Of a DNA stretch of 64,000 nt, positions 1,534-11,853 are shown piece by piece. A program made the translations under genes and the position numbers. The notes beneath the pieces were generated by a model, which saw nothing but the letters and a program-made list of their open reading frames with translations, did not search any database and was not told the origin of the DNA. This DNA is from Promethearchaeota archaeon Loki_b31 (lineage in GTDB: Archaea; Asgardarchaeota; Lokiarchaeia; Sigyniarchaeales; SOKP01). The DNA lies in assembly GCA_005222975.1 (NCBI GenBank), contig NJBI01000002.1, positions 1 to 64,000 on the forward strand. The letters are read 5' to 3'. Position 1 is the stretch's first letter. Each line of letters opens with the position of its first letter.

Positions 1534-2382
1534 TTAATTAGTATTTTCTTCAAGACCTAATTGCGACACCATCATTCTTTTCAGCTCTTCTTTATTTTTA
1601 GGCAAACCAAACATATCTGCATACTTATCTGTTGTAGCCAATTCAGCTGACCTTCCTTTTTTTATTGCCGATATTAGATCGTTTTCTAAAAGGTATTTGA
1701 CGTGCTCGTAAGCCCCACTTCCTCTTAATTTAATAACAGTTGATTTTAAAATTGGCTGTTTCAGCGCTATAATCGTTAGTGTTCTTAAGTAACGCTCAGC
1801 AATAGCGCCTCCTTTGGCGAATTTAGATACTGTTTCGGTAAGTTCAGGTCTAAGCTGCATCTGGTATTTCTCTCCAATTTGAGCGACAATTAACGCGCCA
1901 GAACATTCTAAATAATCAAAAGCAACAACTCTTACTAATTCTTCAACTTCTTTTTTGGGAATTTCTAATTTAGTCGATAATTCTTCGACATCAAGGGGTC
2001 TACCTGCTGCGTAAAGGGCGCCTTCTATTAGATTTCTCCGTAGTTCTTTTAATTGTATTTTTAAATCTTCTTTCGTGATTTCTTGGGGAATTTGGGGTTC
2101 TTCACCGTCATTTCCTATAATTTCTATTTCCAGTTCACTTAATATTTCTTCTGAGTTTTCGGAACTTAATGTGTCTTCTTCAAATTCTTCTTTGGATTCT
2201 TTTTCAAGTTCTTCTTCGATATTCTCATCGGTATCAATAGTATCCTCTAATTCTTCCGGAATCTTTTCTACTTGAGAGATATCTTCTTCTATTTCACTTA
2301 TATGTATTTCTTCCTTCTCTTCAACTATTTCAGTTTCAATTTCAGGTAGTTTTTCCAGTTCTTTTTCCCTATTTTCGTTCAT
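1534..2382 (-). CDS. scpB: Segregation and condensation protein ScpB
   Basis: Winged-helix accessory subunit of the SMC-ScpAB chromosome-organising complex. Residues about 112-265 carry the tandem winged-helix ScpB core, recognisable from EGALYAAGRPLDVEEL, the RYLRTLTIIALKQPI helix and the GSGAYEHVKYLLENDLI segment. The first ~105 residues are an extremely acidic, low-complexity extension rich in Glu, absent from typical ScpB and probably disordered. A Shine-Dalgarno GGTGAT lies a few bases upstream of the ATG, giving a reference for how this organism marks starts. It sits 29 bases after scpA in an smc-scpA-scpB operon. Confidence 0.85.
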   Translation of the reverse strand: MNENREKELEKLPEIETEIVEEKEEIHISEIEEDISQVEKIPEELEDTIDTDENIEEELEKESKEEFEEDTLSSENSEEILSELEIEIIGNDGEEPQIPQEITKEDLKIQLKELRRNLIEGALYAAGRPLDVEELSTKLEIPKKEVEELVRVVAFDYLECSGALIVAQIGEKYQMQLRPELTETVSKFAKGGAIAERYLRTLTIIALKQPILKSTVIKLRGSGAYEHVKYLLENDLISAIKKGRSAELATTDKYADMFGLPKNKEELKRMMVSQLGLEENTN

Positions 2383-2411: not shown

Positions 2412-3419
2412 TTATTTTTTTAAGTTAATCGAAATATTTTTAAAAACGTCTTCTTGTGATAACGTTAGCTTATTGCCCGTAGACAGGAACATAAGCGCCA
2501 AAAACATTCTTACAAAAGCAAACTTTTTACCAAGGTCGCTTTCTTCTTCAGTATTAATAATTTTTGCTATTTCAAAAAAAGTCGTTTCTTTACCGTCAAG
2601 TTGTATTTTCGATTTAATGCGGTTAAACCAAGAATTGTGCAGTTCTGCTACCGTTTGTTCTTTTCCACTAATATGTTTCAAAAGTTCTTTTGGTAATTGA
2701 GCTTTTGATTTCGTTTGAATTCTTTGTTGTTTTATTTCGTCCCTCCGCATTCTCCGCCGTTTTAATTTTTCTTTCTTTTGCATAGTTTCGATTATGGCAG
2801 ACCTCATCGCGTCAAATAATTCATCTTTAGTGGAGATCAGCATTTTTGGCTGGATGGGTTGCGGTAATGCCTTTGGAATTGTTCGAGAATGTTTTTCCCG
2901 GAATTTCTCTAATTCTTCTTTTTTTTGAATTTGTTCTTCTTCTCTTATAATACTCGAAATTTTATAATGATGAAGTACTGCTGATGTTTTGAGAGCAATA
3001 CCTGAAATCTTATAATTGATTAAATCTTCGTGTAGCATTTTATCGAAAAATTTATCTACCAACGATGCCAAATCATAGAACGCAACATTTGATTCTTTTG
3101 CGATTTCACTATCTAATAGCGAATTATAGGGGGGTTTTTGCCAAAATTTAAAATCAAATTTTTGTTTATGAATCAGTGCAGGATCTTCTTCTTCGCCAGC
3201 AATTAACTCTTCTTCAATTATTTCTTCCACATCTTCCTGTTCTTGAGTTCTATCTACAAATTCTGGATGAGAAGTTATCTCGCTTAAAAACTTTATAATA
3301 TCGTTCTTTTTGGACTTAGAAGGGATTTTAATCTTATTTTTGCTCGCAAATTCTCTTAATTGCTTAACACTCCATTCCGTGAAGGCGTACTTCTTTTCTA
3401 AGGCATTTTTTTCAGGAAT
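2412..3419 (-). CDS. scpA: Kleisin ScpA with N-terminal SAP-like motif, apparent AUU start
   Basis: Kleisin subunit that bridges SMC heads and binds ScpB. The kleisin N-domain helix is seen in DLASLVDKFFDKMLHEDL and ISGIALKTSAVLHHY, and the C-terminal winged helix ends in LSQEDVFKNISINL. A GTG at 3230 would give 272 residues, but the frame stays open upstream and encodes WSVKQLREFASKNKIKIPSK plus KKNDIIKFL, which resembles a SAP/HeH DNA-binding motif. No ATG, GTG or TTG occurs in this extension. ATT at 3419 (or 3422) follows an AGGTG sequence, so I place the start there (335 residues). The start lies 32 bases after the smc stop. Kleisin identity is fairly sure; the start codon is inference. 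Confidence 0.7.
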   Translation of the reverse strand: MPEKNALEKKYAFTEWSVKQLREFASKNKIKIPSKSKKNDIIKFLSEITSHPEFVDRTQEQEDVEEIIEEELIAGEEEDPALIHKQKFDFKFWQKPPYNSLLDSEIAKESNVAFYDLASLVDKFFDKMLHEDLINYKISGIALKTSAVLHHYKISSIIREEEQIQKKEELEKFREKHSRTIPKALPQPIQPKMLISTKDELFDAMRSAIIETMQKKEKLKRRRMRRDEIKQQRIQTKSKAQLPKELLKHISGKEQTVAELHNSWFNRIKSKIQLDGKETTFFEIAKIINTEEESDLGKKFAFVRMFLALMFLSTGNKLTLSQEDVFKNISINLKK

Positions 3420-3426
3420 AATATTA

Positions 3427-3431
3427 CACCT
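3427..3431 (-). promoter_or_regulatory. Shine-Dalgarno AGGTG preceding ATT codons of scpA
   Basis: AGGTG on the minus strand complements the archaeal 16S tail (AUCACCUCC). It lies 7 bases before the ATT at 3419 and 4 before the ATT at 3422, with no ATG, GTG or TTG in the frame between here and 3230. It supports a non-AUG start for the SAP-containing ScpA. Confidence 0.45.
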
Positions 3432-3451
3432 AAAACTTTTGATTGTTAATT

Positions 3452-6400
3452 TTAATTTTCTTCTACATTTGTGGGCACATCTGGAAGTTCAAGTAACCTC
3501 TTGGCTTCTTCTTCCAAGTCTACGCTAAAGATATCGGTTATTCCACTTTGTGGCATGGAAACGCCATAAATTCGATCAGCATTTACAATATTTTCCTCTC
3601 TATGACTGATTACCATAAATTGTGCTTGTCTCGCAAATTCCTTTATAACCACACTGACTCTATGCACATTTGGGCCGTCTAAAGCGGCGTCAATCTCATC
3701 CATGATGTAAAATGGAGCAGGATAAAATTCTTGAACGGCAAATATAAAGGATAACGCAACCAAAGTTTTTTCACCCCCACTAAGGATCTGCAAACTAGAG
3801 ATACGTTTTCCACGAGGTCGAGCTTCAATAGTAACACCTCCCTCAAACGGTTTATCTGGCCGATCAAGAATCATTTTAGCTGATCCCCCAGGCGAAAGTT
3901 TCTGGAAAATGCGTGAAAACTCTCGGTTTATCTCGTGGTATGCTTTCATGAAGGTTCTAGTCTTCTCCAATTCAATCTTATCAATTGCATCAAGTATAGC
4001 TTTCCTCTCGCGTTGAATCGTCTGTCGCCTCATATCAATTTCGTCGAATCGCTCTTTTACAGTATCATATTGAGTAATTGCCTTTAAATTAACGGGTTCT
4101 ATTGCTTTTTTCTTGCTATTGGTAGTTGAAATATCCGATTGCAAACCAGCTTCAGATAAGTCGTCAGTAACTGGGGGTAATGAGCCATAATCTTTAGATC
4201 GTTGATATAACATTTCAATTTGATCCGTGGTGATAATTTTTTTAGATTCGTAATTATTCAATTTAGAACGTTCCATAGAGTGGTCTGATTTAAGTTCATT
4301 CAATTGATTATGATAATTTTTTTGTTTTTTCCAAGATATATCCTTTCCTTGAATTTCTTTGTTTATCTCTTCTTGCTTGAGGCTCTTTTTATCGTTTTCC
4401 TGGTTTAGGTCGTCTTTAACATTTTCAATATCTTTTAATATAGAATCAACTTGTTTTTCGGCATCTTTAATATCTTCGTGTAAGGATATGATTTTTTGTT
4501 CTCTTTCCTTATTTTTGTTTAATTCGTTTAATTTAGCTTGAGATTTGTGAAGATCTTTGTTATATTTATTTAATTTTTTTTGAGCTCTCTTTTGGGCGTC
4601 TAACTCTTTGTTTTTATCCTCATGCATTGAATTTATTATTTGTTGTACCTCGTCAACTTTCTTTTGTACTCCATCTACCTGAGAGTTAAGCCCTTCTGTC
4701 TCTTGATTACAAATTGTAATTCTTTTGCTTGCTTCAACATTTTCCTTGGATAATTCTTCAATTGAATTTATAATCATCATTACATTTTCAAGACCCCTTA
4801 ACTTATCCATGGTCGTTTCTAAATTCTTGTTCTGTTCATCAATTTGTGTTCTTAACTTTTCAGTACTTTCCCAAAAGTTGTCTTTTTCAGAAAGACGGGC
4901 TTTTATTTTTGAAATTATTGCATCTTGCTCTAGCTTAAGATTCTTTATATTTTCTTCAGTATTGATTATAACATTTTTCTTCTCTTCTATATTACTATTT
5001 AATTCTTTTATATTACTTTCAATTTCAATAATATTGTCGTAAAACGATTGAATACCTTGTAGTTCTTGTAGTTTCTTTTGCAGCCCACCTAATTCTATTT
5101 GTTTGCCTTCAATATTTTTTTTAATTATCGAAATATCGTCCCAATACATGTTTTTTAACTGCTTTAAATTTTTAATCTCAGCCTCAAAATTTTCTTTTTG
5201 CTTCTCTTCTATTACCAAGTTCCTCTGCTCAATTTCATCCCCAGATTTCTTAATTTTTTCATTAATTTCGCTAATTCTTTTATTAACATCTTCTAGTCTT
5301 TTATTACAAGCAGTAAGATCTACTGAATCGTGGTTGTTTTGAGTGCTAATCACGCTTAATTTTTTGTCAATAGTATTTAAGTCGTTATTTTGAGAATGAA
5401 AATTTTCAGTGATTTCTTCGAGTTGTTTATATAAATCTTGGCTTTTCGACATAGTTAACTTTCTTAACGAAAGATATACATTTTCAAGGATCTCCATTAA
5501 ATCTTGTACAAAGCTATCAAAGGTTGAGGTAGATTCTTGTATCTCCACATCTGCTGATTCTTTTACCTTATCTATTAATTGATCTATGGTAGAATCAATG
5601 TTATCAGTAAAGAGTGCTAAAGTTTGAAGGATAGATTTAAGAGTTTCAGACATTTCAGAAGCATCAGATCTTTCTTCAGCTTCAGAGCTAACTCCTTCAA
5701 TAGTTTTCATAATGTCAACTATGTCTAAAACAAATTGTTTAAAATTCGTTCCACTGGTTTCGATAGCTTCTGCGTTTGATTGTTGAATGTTACCCTTTAT
5801 TGATTCAACGGATATATTGATGTTTTGAGTTAACATATTTAAAATCTGAAGGATTCCTGTAATATCTTCTGTGTTTCTTTCGTATTCTTCTTCTGTACTT
5901 TCAATCTTCACCAATAAACTATCTTTTTCGGTTGAAAGTTCCCCCAGGCGTCTTTGAATATTTTCTTTTTTCTTATTCAAATTTTGTGATTCTTTGTCTG
6001 TTTTAGTAAGGTTACCGCTTAAAGTAAACGATTTTAAATCCAATTCACGCTTTTCGCGTTCAAGATTTGTAAGTTCTTTTTTAATTAATTTTAATCTAGT
6101 ATTGATATTTTCAATCCTAGATTTGTTATCATAGATTTCATTTACGATAGAATCTTGTTTCATTAACAATAATTCTAAATTTTGTTCATTTTTTCTATAA
6201 GTAGAATCTTCTTCTTTAGTTTGTCTTCTAAACTCGTTAATATCTTTAAGCAAAGTATCTCTTTTTTTCAACAATTCTTTTAAAACTTCTTCTGTATCTT
6301 TTCCTTTATTAAGGTCTTTAATTTTATTTTCAGTAGCAACTTTTCTCAATTTTAATTTCTCAATACGGTCACTATTCATTTTAATTTCCGTATTCAATGA

Positions 6401-7909
6401 GGATAGCATAGAGTTGAAATCGGCTATTTTCGAATTTAATTGGCTCTTTTCATCTCGTAATTCATTTATATCTTTTTCTAATTCTTTCTGGTTATCGTTT
6501 TCCTTAGAAATTTTTACATTTAAGTTAACTACTTCTTTTCTTATAATTTCCGCTTCCTTTTTTGTGTTTTTTATCGCTTCCTCTACACTCTCAGAATCTC
6601 CTTTCAATTTATTAAGTTCTGCTTTCAACTTTATTTTCTTCTCTTCATTTTTTTTAATGTTTTCTTTTAGAAACTTTAATTTGGCTTTAGTTGAGGAAAT
6701 GCTCTGCTTAATCGTTGAAATTTCTCGATTAAGTGTAGATTTTGTGTTGTTATTATTTTTGATTTTAGTATCAATTTCTGCTTGTTTTTGTTGTTTACTT
6801 TCGATTTCGTCTTTAGCCTCTTCAATCAAGTTATCTGTTTCCTTTATTACCTTTGATTCTGACTCTATTAAAGAATCGTAAGTCTGACCCTCTTCAAGTT
6901 CCATTTGTAAATTTTCTAACGTTTTTATCTCTTGAGTTAGTTTTTCTATTGATTTTTTAAAATTTTTTAAAGAAGTTTGATTCGAAGATTGTTGGGTTTT
7001 TAATAGAGTAATATTTTCGGTAATGACTTCTCTTTCATTTTCTTTCTCAGATATAGTTTTTTGTATGTTTTCCATAACTAGGGTTTCTTGTTGTAGCAAC
7101 TCTTCTTGTCTTGTTAATTTTTCCTGCAATTCTTCAATAATAGAATTAGATTCCTCTATTTTAACCTCCAATTCGTCCTCTTCTTTCCTCAATTTTGAAA
7201 TCTTTAAAGCGATCAATTGAGCATTGTAATACGAAACCTTTTCATCTAGTTCCTTCCAAGCTAAAGCATCGTTTTTTTCTTTTTCAACCTTTTTAAGTTG
7301 AGAAGACACTTCTTTAAAAATTGCTTCAAATTGTCCTAAATCGCGCTCGGCTTTTTCTAACTCTTTCATCGTTGCGTCCTTCATTTCGTCGTACTTTTGA
7401 AGGCCAATTAGATTTTCAATGAATAGTCTACGACCCTCTTCGTTCATATGAGTCAATTCCACGATTTTTCCTTGCAAAACAAATTGGTTGCTGCCATCAG
7501 GATCTACATTAGCTACAGCTAAAGCGTTAAGAATTTGTTGACGGGTAGCTTTTTTCCCATTCATTTTATAGCCGCCACCACCCCCTCTTTGTATAGTTCG
7601 ACTAATTTCAAAAGTATTAGTTCCGCCTGGAAATATTTTTTCGGAATTATCAAAATATAGAGACACTGTGGCTCTATTTGAAGGGTTTTTACCTCGAGAA
7701 CCAGCAAAAATTAAATCTTCAAGACTTTTAGCTCTCATAGTTTTCTTGCTTAATCTACCTAAAGCAAAAGTTAATGCATCAATAATATTGGATTTACCGG
7801 CCCCATTAGGCCCTACGATGCATGTAAAACCTGAAGAGAGCCTTATAGTTACCGTACGATCTCCGAAGGATTTAAATCCTGTCATCGAAATTTTTTTAAT
7901 ATAGGTCAA
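3452..7909 (-). CDS. smc: SMC chromosome-segregation ATPase with atypical centre
   Basis: Structural maintenance of chromosomes ATPase, 1485 residues against about 1150-1200 for usual prokaryotic SMC. The N-terminal head has Walker A GPNGAGKSN (about 33-41); the C-terminal head has the ABC signature LSGGEKT and Walker B FYIMDEIDAALD. Between them lie two coiled-coil arms of roughly equal length, about 170-680 and 820-1330. The centre lacks the glycine-rich hinge (GVxGxVxDL-type); instead about residues 681-739 and 753-812 look like two copies of one helical unit (ILQILNMLTQNI versus ILQTLALFTDNI). No CxxC zinc hook is present, so it is not Rad50. The start is TTG at 7909; scpA and scpB follow downstream. 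Confidence 0.9.
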   Translation of the reverse strand: MTYIKKISMTGFKSFGDRTVTIRLSSGFTCIVGPNGAGKSNIIDALTFALGRLSKKTMRAKSLEDLIFAGSRGKNPSNRATVSLYFDNSEKIFPGGTNTFEISRTIQRGGGGGYKMNGKKATRQQILNALAVANVDPDGSNQFVLQGKIVELTHMNEEGRRLFIENLIGLQKYDEMKDATMKELEKAERDLGQFEAIFKEVSSQLKKVEKEKNDALAWKELDEKVSYYNAQLIALKISKLRKEEDELEVKIEESNSIIEELQEKLTRQEELLQQETLVMENIQKTISEKENEREVITENITLLKTQQSSNQTSLKNFKKSIEKLTQEIKTLENLQMELEEGQTYDSLIESESKVIKETDNLIEEAKDEIESKQQKQAEIDTKIKNNNNTKSTLNREISTIKQSISSTKAKLKFLKENIKKNEEKKIKLKAELNKLKGDSESVEEAIKNTKKEAEIIRKEVVNLNVKISKENDNQKELEKDINELRDEKSQLNSKIADFNSMLSSLNTEIKMNSDRIEKLKLRKVATENKIKDLNKGKDTEEVLKELLKKRDTLLKDINEFRRQTKEEDSTYRKNEQNLELLLMKQDSIVNEIYDNKSRIENINTRLKLIKKELTNLEREKRELDLKSFTLSGNLTKTDKESQNLNKKKENIQRRLGELSTEKDSLLVKIESTEEEYERNTEDITGILQILNMLTQNINISVESIKGNIQQSNAEAIETSGTNFKQFVLDIVDIMKTIEGVSSEAEERSDASEMSETLKSILQTLALFTDNIDSTIDQLIDKVKESADVEIQESTSTFDSFVQDLMEILENVYLSLRKLTMSKSQDLYKQLEEITENFHSQNNDLNTIDKKLSVISTQNNHDSVDLTACNKRLEDVNKRISEINEKIKKSGDEIEQRNLVIEEKQKENFEAEIKNLKQLKNMYWDDISIIKKNIEGKQIELGGLQKKLQELQGIQSFYDNIIEIESNIKELNSNIEEKKNVIINTEENIKNLKLEQDAIISKIKARLSEKDNFWESTEKLRTQIDEQNKNLETTMDKLRGLENVMMIINSIEELSKENVEASKRITICNQETEGLNSQVDGVQKKVDEVQQIINSMHEDKNKELDAQKRAQKKLNKYNKDLHKSQAKLNELNKNKEREQKIISLHEDIKDAEKQVDSILKDIENVKDDLNQENDKKSLKQEEINKEIQGKDISWKKQKNYHNQLNELKSDHSMERSKLNNYESKKIITTDQIEMLYQRSKDYGSLPPVTDDLSEAGLQSDISTTNSKKKAIEPVNLKAITQYDTVKERFDEIDMRRQTIQRERKAILDAIDKIELEKTRTFMKAYHEINREFSRIFQKLSPGGSAKMILDRPDKPFEGGVTIEARPRGKRISSLQILSGGEKTLVALSFIFAVQEFYPAPFYIMDEIDAALDGPNVHRVSVVIKEFARQAQFMVISHREENIVNADRIYGVSMPQSGITDIFSVDLEEEAKRLLELPDVPTNVEEN

Positions 7910-10341: not shown

Positions 10342-11853
10342 TTAAAGCCCAAAGAAAGAATCATAATCAATATTCATAATTTGAAGATCGGAATCTAAAT
10401 CCCGAGTTGAAAATAAATCTCTTCCATATTTTTGAAGAAATTGAGCCTGAAGATTTTCGTAGAAATCTCGTAAATCTGTTAAATTAAAAGAATAATAAAG
10501 ATTTAAAGCATGGTTAAAATATTCTAGAAACTTTCCTTCTAAAACAATCAATTCTGCAAATAAATCATACCTGATAATGATTACATTTCTAAATTTTGTA
10601 TATATAATTTGTTTAATAGCATTTTTTATCCATCCTTTCCATCGGGTTCCGACAATGAATAACATCATATCTTTTTTTTGATATTTAATCGTTTTATCTT
10701 TAATATTATCATTAGAAAGATCACTCGTATAATCAAACATGAACGCACTTAGTATTCTTAAGGAATTAATATCTAATCCAAGTCTATTCAAAAGTTTTGG
10801 ATTATTGACGAGCCTAAAAAATAAATATTTCATGTTATTTATGTTTAAAAGAAGTGAATCAACTTTATATTTTCTCCTCGTTGAAACTATAGTTTCTGAA
10901 TATATTTTCAGTTGTTTTGACATAAAAAACATTGTAATAATATACTGAAAAGCTAAATGTAAATATGTTCCCATAAGACCATATATTTCAACGCAATCGG
11001 GACATCCTCTGCCTCTTTGAATAGAATTATAACTTGCCTTCCACACATGGTCTGAAACCGCCATACATTGCCATCTGAGTTTCGTCTTGTTCGGAGGTTT
11101 CTTTCCCCTACAACGCATTGTCGCTTTAAATTCCTCACGAGTCATATCCAATTCCAGGTCATCCCTAGAATTTCCCAATAATACACAATCCTCATAAGAA
11201 ATTTCTCTACAACGAGGACAACCAGTACCTCCAGCAATGCTTCTATAATGTGCAAGCCATGTATGGCTTGAATTTATTGAACATCGCCACGTTAACTTTA
11301 CTCTGCTGGGAGACACATTTCTCCTATTGAGCATTGCGTTATCAAATTCCTCACGAGTCATATCAAATTCCAAATCATCTCTAGAATTTCCCAATGCGAC
11401 ACAATCTTCATAAGTAATTTCTCTGCAATGAGGACAACCATACCCTATTTTAATAAAACTATAGCCTTTTTCCCAAAAATGGCGTGGATTTATCGAACAT
11501 CGCCATCTTAGCATTACTCTGCTGGGAGACACATTTCCCCTATTGAGCATTGCGTTATCAAATTCCTCACGAGTCATATCAAATTCCAGGTCATCTCTAG
11601 AATTTCCCAATGCGACACAATCCTCATAAGTAATTTCTCTGCACTGAGGGCATCCATAACCTATTCTAATAAGGCTGTAACCTTTTTCCCAAAAATGGCG
11701 TGGATTTATCGAACATCGCCATCTTAGCTTTACCTGGCTTGGACTTATTGTTCCTCTGTTTCTTATAACCTCATCAAATTCCTCACGAGTCATATCAAAT
11801 TCCAGGTCATCTCTAGAGTTTCCCAATGCGATACAATCCTCATAACTAATCAC
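10342..11853 (-). CDS. Four-repeat treble-clef zinc-finger protein with possible nuclease C-terminus
   Basis: A 503-residue protein. Residues 2-289 are four copies of a 72-residue unit, each with YEDCxxLGNSRDDLE, a MTREEF helix and a zinc module of the form WxC-x-H-x-W-x-GCPxC. This arrangement matches DUF4379-type treble-clef zinc ribbons often attached to nucleases. The C-terminal ~215 residues are not clearly recognisable; RRKYKVDSLLL and LFIVGTRWKGW could be strands of an endonuclease-like core, but I cannot assign catalytic residues confidently. It lies at the left edge of the accessory block on the minus strand. Nucleic-acid binding is likely; function is unknown. Confidence 0.55.
   Translation of the reverse strand: MISYEDCIALGNSRDDLEFDMTREEFDEVIRNRGTISPSQVKLRWRCSINPRHFWEKGYSLIRIGYGCPQCREITYEDCVALGNSRDDLEFDMTREEFDNAMLNRGNVSPSRVMLRWRCSINPRHFWEKGYSFIKIGYGCPHCREITYEDCVALGNSRDDLEFDMTREEFDNAMLNRRNVSPSRVKLTWRCSINSSHTWLAHYRSIAGGTGCPRCREISYEDCVLLGNSRDDLELDMTREEFKATMRCRGKKPPNKTKLRWQCMAVSDHVWKASYNSIQRGRGCPDCVEIYGLMGTYLHLAFQYIITMFFMSKQLKIYSETIVSTRRKYKVDSLLLNINNMKYLFFRLVNNPKLLNRLGLDINSLRILSAFMFDYTSDLSNDNIKDKTIKYQKKDMMLFIVGTRWKGWIKNAIKQIIYTKFRNVIIIRYDLFAELIVLEGKFLEYFNHALNLYYSFNLTDLRDFYENLQAQFLQKYGRDLFSTRDLDSDLQIMNIDYDSFFGL
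10987..11850 (-). repeat. Four tandem 216-bp coding repeats
   Basis: Units at 11850-11635, 11634-11419, 11418-11203 and 11202-10987 encode the four treble-clef modules. Units 2 and 3 are nearly identical at the DNA level (including the stretch reading CCTCACGAGTCATATC on the plus strand), indicating recent duplication or gene conversion; unit 4 is the most divergent. The array could expand or contract by recombination. Confidence 0.9.

Follow-up and report, generated by a model that had tools for sequence, protein, structure and literature searches.

We analyzed a window of 64,000 nucleotides (contig NJBI01000002.1, positions 1 to 64,000 of the forward strand; GenBank assembly GCA_005222975.1) from Promethearchaeota archaeon Loki_b31, a member of the Lokiarchaeota, which belong to the archaeal group thought to be nearest to eukaryotes. 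The window carries a gene for a 1485-residue SMC protein, here called SMC-A. Judged from its sequence, SMC-A combines SMC heads, linkage to scpA and scpB, no detectable canonical hinge, and a duplicated, conserved center. The reading that we favor, and hold to be reasonably probable, is that SMC-A belongs to a Lokiarchaeal Smc-ScpAB condensin whose hinge was swapped ancestrally for a duplicated helical hairpin and that the tips of two such proteins would pair.

SMC-A has ATPase heads but no detectable canonical hinge

The open reading frame of SMC-A opens at TTG and encodes the split ATPase head that marks SMC proteins, with Walker A (GPNGAGKS at residue 33) and a Q-loop (FVLQG at 143) on the N-terminal side and the signature (LSGGEKT at 1376) and Walker B (FYIMDEIDAALD at 1400) on the C-terminal side. 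The NCBIfam model TIGR02168 scored 576.3 bits, above its cutoff of 567.35, while TIGR02169 reached 582.3, below its cutoff of 729.4. Together, the motifs and the TIGR02168 score bear out a first-pass annotation of the window, which had described the heads as normal. The CxxC motif is absent throughout SMC-A, which has three cysteines in all, so the protein lacks the zinc hook of Rad50, SbcC, and ASRP. The parts of the gene on which the argument depends are as follows.

3452..7909, minus strand: SMC-A gene, 1485 residues, long arms, canonical hinge undetected (open reading frame, Pfam, NCBIfam)
7415..7909, minus strand: N-terminal ATPase head, residues 1-165, Walker A at residue 33 (boundary approximate)
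5450..5869, minus strand: center module at the hinge position, residues 681-820 (profile searches, model, conservation)
5699..5854, minus strand: center unit 1, residues 686-737 (52-mer pair scan, profile comparison)
5660..5677, minus strand: predicted hairpin loop, residues 745-750, in an acidic, poorly conserved, length-variable stretch (model, alignment)
5477..5632, minus strand: center unit 2, residues 760-811 (52-mer pair scan, profile comparison)
3500..4057, minus strand: C-terminal ATPase head, residues 1285-1470, signature and Walker B (boundary approximate)

A Pfam scan of SMC-A at E ≤ 1 returned SMC_N and four ATPase families but not SMC_hinge (PF06470), in agreement with the earlier statement that the center has no glycine-rich hinge motif. 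Because this canonical hinge was not found, we class SMC-A as a hinge-replaced SMC variant and not as a canonical SMC. Residues 640 to 860 contain zero proline and five glycines. SMC_hinge matched somewhere in 56 of 58 genomes, and none of the matches listed for the 58 lay inside the SMC-A gene when contigs and coordinates were compared. Other known Pfam domains were rejected as an identity for the Loki_b31 center, where none of the 25 families listed (of 26) reached its cutoff and the best score, for Apolipoprotein, was 24.8 bits against a cutoff of 90. When the centers of 25 members were searched at E ≤ 10, SMC_hinge was absent among the 25 listed of the 229 matching Pfam families.

The center is duplicated and conserved

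The two units of the center align without gaps, with 15 of 52 residues identical. When all 714,342 ungapped pairs of 52-mers from the coil were scored, theirs ranked first (score of 79; next best, 64), and the highest score in 1000 shuffles of the center was 56. Family profiles of units 1 and 2 matched each other with a probability of 98.5 (E = 3.6e-15) over 61 columns, for a unit length of ~60 residues; as controls, the units were set against arm windows in 44 comparisons, which gave at most 5.3. The two ungapped copies of ~52 residues noticed at first pass are therefore recovered both as the best 52-mer pair in the coil and by profile comparison.

Conservation, taken as the mean share of the commonest residue over 37 alignment rows, was 0.68 in the center (0.70 and 0.71 in the units), 0.61 in the N-terminal arm, 0.57 in the C-terminal arm, 0.55 and 0.51 in the arm parts flanking the center, and 0.40 in the loop stretch (residues 745 to 756). 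The center is also richer in large hydrophobic residues (36.5% versus 26 to 27% in the arms) and poorer in charged residues (25.5% versus 39 to 41%), above all in Lys plus Arg (6.8% versus 17 to 19%), and is acidic overall. A conserved hydrophobic pattern is common to both units. Hydrophobic periodicity was 3.636 in each unit, ~3.5 in five of eight arm windows, and 3.6, 3.41, and 3.29 in the rest, a contrast between units and arms that is only suggestive.

Predicted structure of the center

AlphaFold2 models were made for residues 631 to 870 of Loki_b31 SMC-A (55 alignment rows) and for a divergent homolog, L169 (33 rows; 31% identity to Loki_b31 over the stretch); most alignment rows are common to both, so the models are not independent. 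In the Loki_b31 model, helices at residues 632 to 744 and 751 to 869 are separated by a six-residue loop, with a mean predicted local distance difference test (pLDDT) score of 79 and values of ≥90 in the outer arm parts. The L169 model repeats this layout of two helices plus loop (mean pLDDT, 76.2), and no strand appears in either. Both units are thus predicted to be continuous long helices joined at a short loop, consistent with the helical center claimed initially, and a canonical hinge fold was found there by neither profile search nor structure prediction. Structural matches included SMC coiled coils and chemoreceptor hairpins, none significant, and a profile search for solved relatives of the center gave a best E of 0.0043, to the chain sc-apCC-6-SLLA.

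The module also occurs outside SMC proteins

The center profile found four coiled-coil proteins of 925 to 1041 residues with the tip module and without SMC heads, one each in genomes G042, G046, G049, and G050 of family f2.

L091, 3497-6622: standalone coiled-coil protein with tip module (profile search)
L092, 2912-5692: standalone coiled-coil protein with tip module (profile search)
L093, 1083-3860: standalone coiled-coil protein with tip module (profile search)
L094, 2901-5678: standalone coiled-coil protein with tip module (profile search)

Matches to these proteins covered nearly the full length of the profile (E = 2.6e-24 to 2.5e-22), and a second copy of the module is present in the proteins from G046, G049, and G050 (E = 2.0e-14 to 5.2e-12), with none listed for G042. 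A joint alignment of the standalone proteins matched the center profiles with probabilities of 98.6 to 98.9 (first copy) and 96.1 (second copy); five control comparisons, made against the arms and hinge of canonical SMCs, gave at most 2.2. In the reverse search from one standalone protein, 30 matches reached E ≤ 1e-6, and 25 of these lay, by their coordinates, inside SMC-A genes. Pfam assigned no family to the two standalone proteins scanned. Lys-rich tails end the proteins L091 and L092. Two further matches, in frames of 487 and 488 residues (G030, E = 7.4e-7; G148, E = 1.7e-5), were rejected: the frames were read by eye as cysteinyl-tRNA synthetase, the similarity is a chance one between helices, and such weak matches to the center profile are not homology.

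A different SMC was seen in genome G053 of the same class (L191, 1736-5518). It has 1260 residues, SMC heads, the CxxC-bearing sequence FCKTCPHV near its middle, and no SMC_hinge match at E ≤ 0.01, and it is possibly a second natural hinge replacement, of a zinc-hook-like kind. It could not be extended to a wider zinc-hook family, since a search with its center matched 4 of 227 genomes and was strong only in its own, the other three matching at E = 1.2e-4 to 4.5e-4.

SMC-A is linked to scpA and scpB

An scpA-like gene and scpB lie downstream of SMC-A in Loki_b31.

2412..3230, minus strand: scpA-like kleisin gene, GTG start (Pfam ScpA E = 0.017, below cutoff; conserved position)
1534..2382, minus strand: scpB (kite subunit) gene (PF04079, E = 3.2e-32)

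The arrangement recurs at 31 of the 41 SMC-A loci fetched, where scpA and scpB are downstream on the same strand at a distance of 0 to 3.7 kb; seven others are truncated by a contig edge. SMC-A is thus linked to a kleisin and a kite subunit at 31 of 41 loci, with the ScpA of Loki_b31 itself falling under the Pfam cutoff. Upstream of its GTG start, the scpA frame continues open (3231-3446, minus strand, at least to 3446). This segment is similar to domains of the helix-extended-helix type (Ish1, E = 2e-4; Rho_N, E = 0.0016; both below cutoff), and at its position the frames of two relatives (L064 and L066) contain a start codon; it did not turn up in five relatives on longer branches (L080, L082, L085, L086, and L089). 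It may be an extension through which the kleisin binds DNA.

Distribution and origin of SMC-A

The center profile matched 67 of the 227 genomes of the phylum, comprising 54 of the 65 in the source family, 12 of the 14 from the rest of the order, and one from elsewhere (G104); the denominators 65, 14, and 79 assume a genome list ordered by kinship (140 matchless genomes are not listed individually). One of the 12 (G049) matches only in its standalone protein, and SMC-A with the center is present in 65 of the 79 genomes of the order, some frames being truncated. The G104 copy likely reflects transfer or misbinning, because it clusters with family f2 in the tree of head sequences. A whole-protein search, run on 7 of the 11 source-family genomes with no center match, found parts of SMC-A in G008 and G018 (both at a contig end) and in G022 (residues 1 to 435), a canonical-length SMC only in G141, and no match at E ≤ 1e-10 in the remaining three. 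In a scan of named genomes, 55 loci were found, labeled Candidatus Lokiarchaeota or Lokiarchaeia with one Hodarchaeota; at least 41 of the 55 are identical in sequence to fetched loci, so the two sets overlap and are not independent, and the scan patterns favor close relatives, so that distant ones may also exist. In genome G154 (L204, 4393-8844), SMC-A is split into two open reading frames of 878 and 529 residues, perhaps by a sequencing frameshift.

In the head-sequence tree (49 rows, 344 columns, midpoint root), all 20 SMC-A rows form one clade (100/100) among hinge-bearing SMCs, which answers the comparison with other Asgard SMC proteins proposed at first pass and supports a single origin of SMC-A. 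The sister group (L192, L193, L194, and L197; join supported at 97/95) consists of SMCs ~1190 residues long, encoded in other families within the class or phylum. Three of these match PF06470 weakly but above its cutoff (E = 2.4e-7, 1.2e-5, and 6.4e-11), and in the fourth, L197, the match falls below it (E = 0.0047; score of 17.7 versus 22.5). Given that the long SMCs are one clade among hinge-bearing Asgard SMCs, the hinge was probably replaced, a hinge-bearing ancestor probably having lost it along the stem leading to the order. That hinges score weakly in the sister group would be consistent with gradual hinge decay. Some genomes of the order still carry members of a second SMC clade, with a canonical hinge.

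Two other SMC genes were noted in these searches. On contig C46 of the Loki_b31 genome, L002 (4515-7883, minus strand) encodes another SMC, a distant one in which the canonical hinge scores weakly; behind it lie two small genes of 216 and 171 residues with no Pfam family at cutoff, perhaps its kleisin and kite. The canonical-hinge SMC L101 (G047, family f4) comes with scpAB from a bin whose contamination is 9%, and it is probably misbinned, since it groups (100/99) with G057 from another family of the phylum.

Proposed mechanism and alternatives

We propose that in an ancestor of the order a helical hairpin, built from a duplicated unit of ~60 residues, would have taken the place of the hinge. 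The hydrophobic faces of two hairpins would pack against each other, giving a homodimer held by a helical, probably four-helix, bundle. The tip would then keep two SMCs joined and ScpA would bridge the heads, with ATP driving the capture or extrusion of DNA loops. Because the module is acidic and poor in Lys and Arg, the DNA-binding role of the hinge probably did not pass to it.

Several results weigh against this proposal. Packing of the tip is unsure, with pLDDT values of 53 to 77 per 10-residue block in the center of the Loki_b31 model and a predicted template modeling (pTM) score of 0.44; the corresponding values for L169 are 56 to 76 and 0.47. Foldseek returned nothing at E ≤ 0.001 (top rows, E = 0.042 to 0.059), the best VIA Z was 12.7, below the stated mark of ~13 for helical models, and the matches in both searches are generic for long helices. 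The best of 150 sampled arm-arm pairs was as strong as the pair of units (98.5) because the arms carry tandem repeats of their own, which show that duplication is not peculiar to the tip. Three of the 41 SMC-A loci have no scpA-scpB within 3.7 to 4.1 kb. The tree program warns of long branches, and a first head tree, built from 34 of the 49 rows after 15 were dropped for lack of a motif, placed L194 alone as sister to SMC-A (85/78).

The low model confidence at the tip would also suit a protein that lost its hinge and uses the tip to dock an adaptor, chromatin, or membrane protein, with the heads and kleisin alone holding the pair. The module exists without SMC heads, and so is usable elsewhere, and hinge-less SMCs are on record with no substitute described for the hinge (PMC12153180). 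Nonetheless, we consider docking unlikely, in that Bacillus subtilis Smc is reported to be nonfunctional once hinge dimerization is lost (PMC5344682) and the conserved hydrophobic faces of the module fit self-packing. It is very improbable that the center is a canonical hinge diverged past sequence recognition. The weak PF06470 scores of the sister SMCs, below cutoff in L197, would fit such divergence, but profile comparison of the center with five hinges gave a probability of only 0.2, both models are all-helical without a strand, and two repeated helical units occupy the hinge position. Heterodimerization of SMC-A with a canonical-hinge paralog could be imagined in G026, G028, G036, G039, G042, G045, G046, and G050, where the two occur together. 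We give this little credence, since 33 of the 37 source-family genomes among the 58 searched for SMC_hinge have at most one hinge match, always weak (E of ~1e-10 or worse; draft genomes may miss genes), and the two weak matches placed in the tree (Loki_b31 and G034) fall within a distant group of SMCs. Finally, although the source assembly is a draft of 99 contigs, an assembly or annotation artifact, which the first-pass annotation had named as a possible outcome, is refuted by the homologs, found as open frames in 67 of the 227 genomes.

Arms and other features of the window

The arms of SMC-A contain the following features.

5870..7402, minus strand: N-terminal arm, residues 170-680, ~510 residues (boundary approximate)
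6593..6877, minus strand: N-arm repeat copy 1, residues 345-439 (profile probability 98.4, shift of 98 residues)
6299..6583, minus strand: N-arm repeat copy 2, residues 443-537 (pairs with N-arm copy 1)
4070..5437, minus strand: C-terminal arm, residues 825-1280, ~455 residues (boundary approximate)
4961..5197, minus strand: C-arm repeat copy 1, residues 905-983 (profile probability 97.9, shift of 90 residues)
4691..4927, minus strand: C-arm repeat copy 2, residues 995-1073 (pairs with C-arm copy 1)

Arms of ~510 residues had been described on each side; this length holds for the N-terminal arm, while the C-terminal arm, within approximate boundaries, has ~455. Three aligned homologs from family f4 are without residues 482 to 578 and 874 to 961 (97 and 88 residues), roughly one repeat length in each arm. 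In B. subtilis Smc, functional arm lengths recur every 91 residues, not far from the superhelical period of coiled coils, ~99 residues (PMC5344682), and the match of the SMC-A repeats to this period is suggestive; with these repeats, the reported periodicity could be tested in a natural system. We put at about even chances the broader possibility that the condensin of this order uses a natural swap of hinge for hairpin module, that the module is reusable in non-SMC coiled-coil proteins, and that each arm has grown by one unit of 90 to 98 residues, near one superhelical period, as a tuned-arm model predicts.

Elsewhere in the window, a 503-residue protein (10342-11853, minus strand) has four tandem matches to DUF4379 treble-clef zinc fingers, and an Rfam scan of all 64 kb found only a tRNA.

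Comparison with known systems

We found no published account of Lokiarchaeal SMC-A in the open-licence literature, within the portion of search results viewed; the passages of PMC7203096 and PMC8707338 that name Lokiarchaeota and SMC are silent on a Lokiarchaeal SMC hinge. The proposal that SMC-A would be a new SMC architecture is supported in part, for its duplicated helical center with no detectable hinge; its newness is limited by hinge-less SMCs and an engineered hinge swap, both already published. A 2025 paper that reports a hinge-less SMC clade in marine Actinobacteria calls the hinge essential to the assembly, DNA binding, and loading of SMCs (PMC12153180). Like those proteins, SMC-A has SMC heads, no hinge, and no zinc hook. 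Unlike SMC-A, the actinobacterial clade is bacterial and, compared by description only, has no replacement module, duplicated unit, or scpAB linkage in the account given there (PMC12153180). Independent hinge losses in the two groups would fit the position of the Lokiarchaeal clade inside the Asgard SMCs.

SMC-A resembles Rad50/SbcC and the archaeal ASRP proteins (coalescin, Sph; PMC9389158) as an SMC-like ATPase with a small non-hinge tip at the end of its arms, but it differs from these zinc-hook proteins in having no CxxC and heads that score as SMC. Its long helical hairpin recalls the chemoreceptor cytoplasmic hairpin (PDB 1qu7, titled a four-helical bundle), a likeness that is an analogy only, with no significant sequence or structure match (VIA Z of about 11). 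With bacterial and archaeal Smc-ScpAB, SMC-A shares its heads, ATPase motifs, TIGR02168 assignment, smc-scpA-scpB gene order, and long arms; it departs from canonical Smc in having a duplicated helical module for a hinge and arms of ~510 and 455 residues, compared with 344 in B. subtilis Smc (PMC5344682).

A precedent comes from B. subtilis, where Smc whose hinge had been exchanged for the Rad50 zinc hook supported normal growth in rich medium, and the fold of the dimerization domain was concluded to be irrelevant for chromosome segregation (PMC5344682); conversely, yeast Rad50 has been made to carry the MukB hinge (PMC6969161). As in the zinc-hook Smc, an unrelated element stands at the hinge position of SMC-A, but the SMC-A tip is natural, helical, and order-wide, and its dimerization is proposed from the features above. 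Evolution in Asgard archaea appears to parallel the dimerization domain swap made in B. subtilis, and a natural hinge replacement in an ScpAB-linked SMC lets one ask which of the jobs of the hinge matter.

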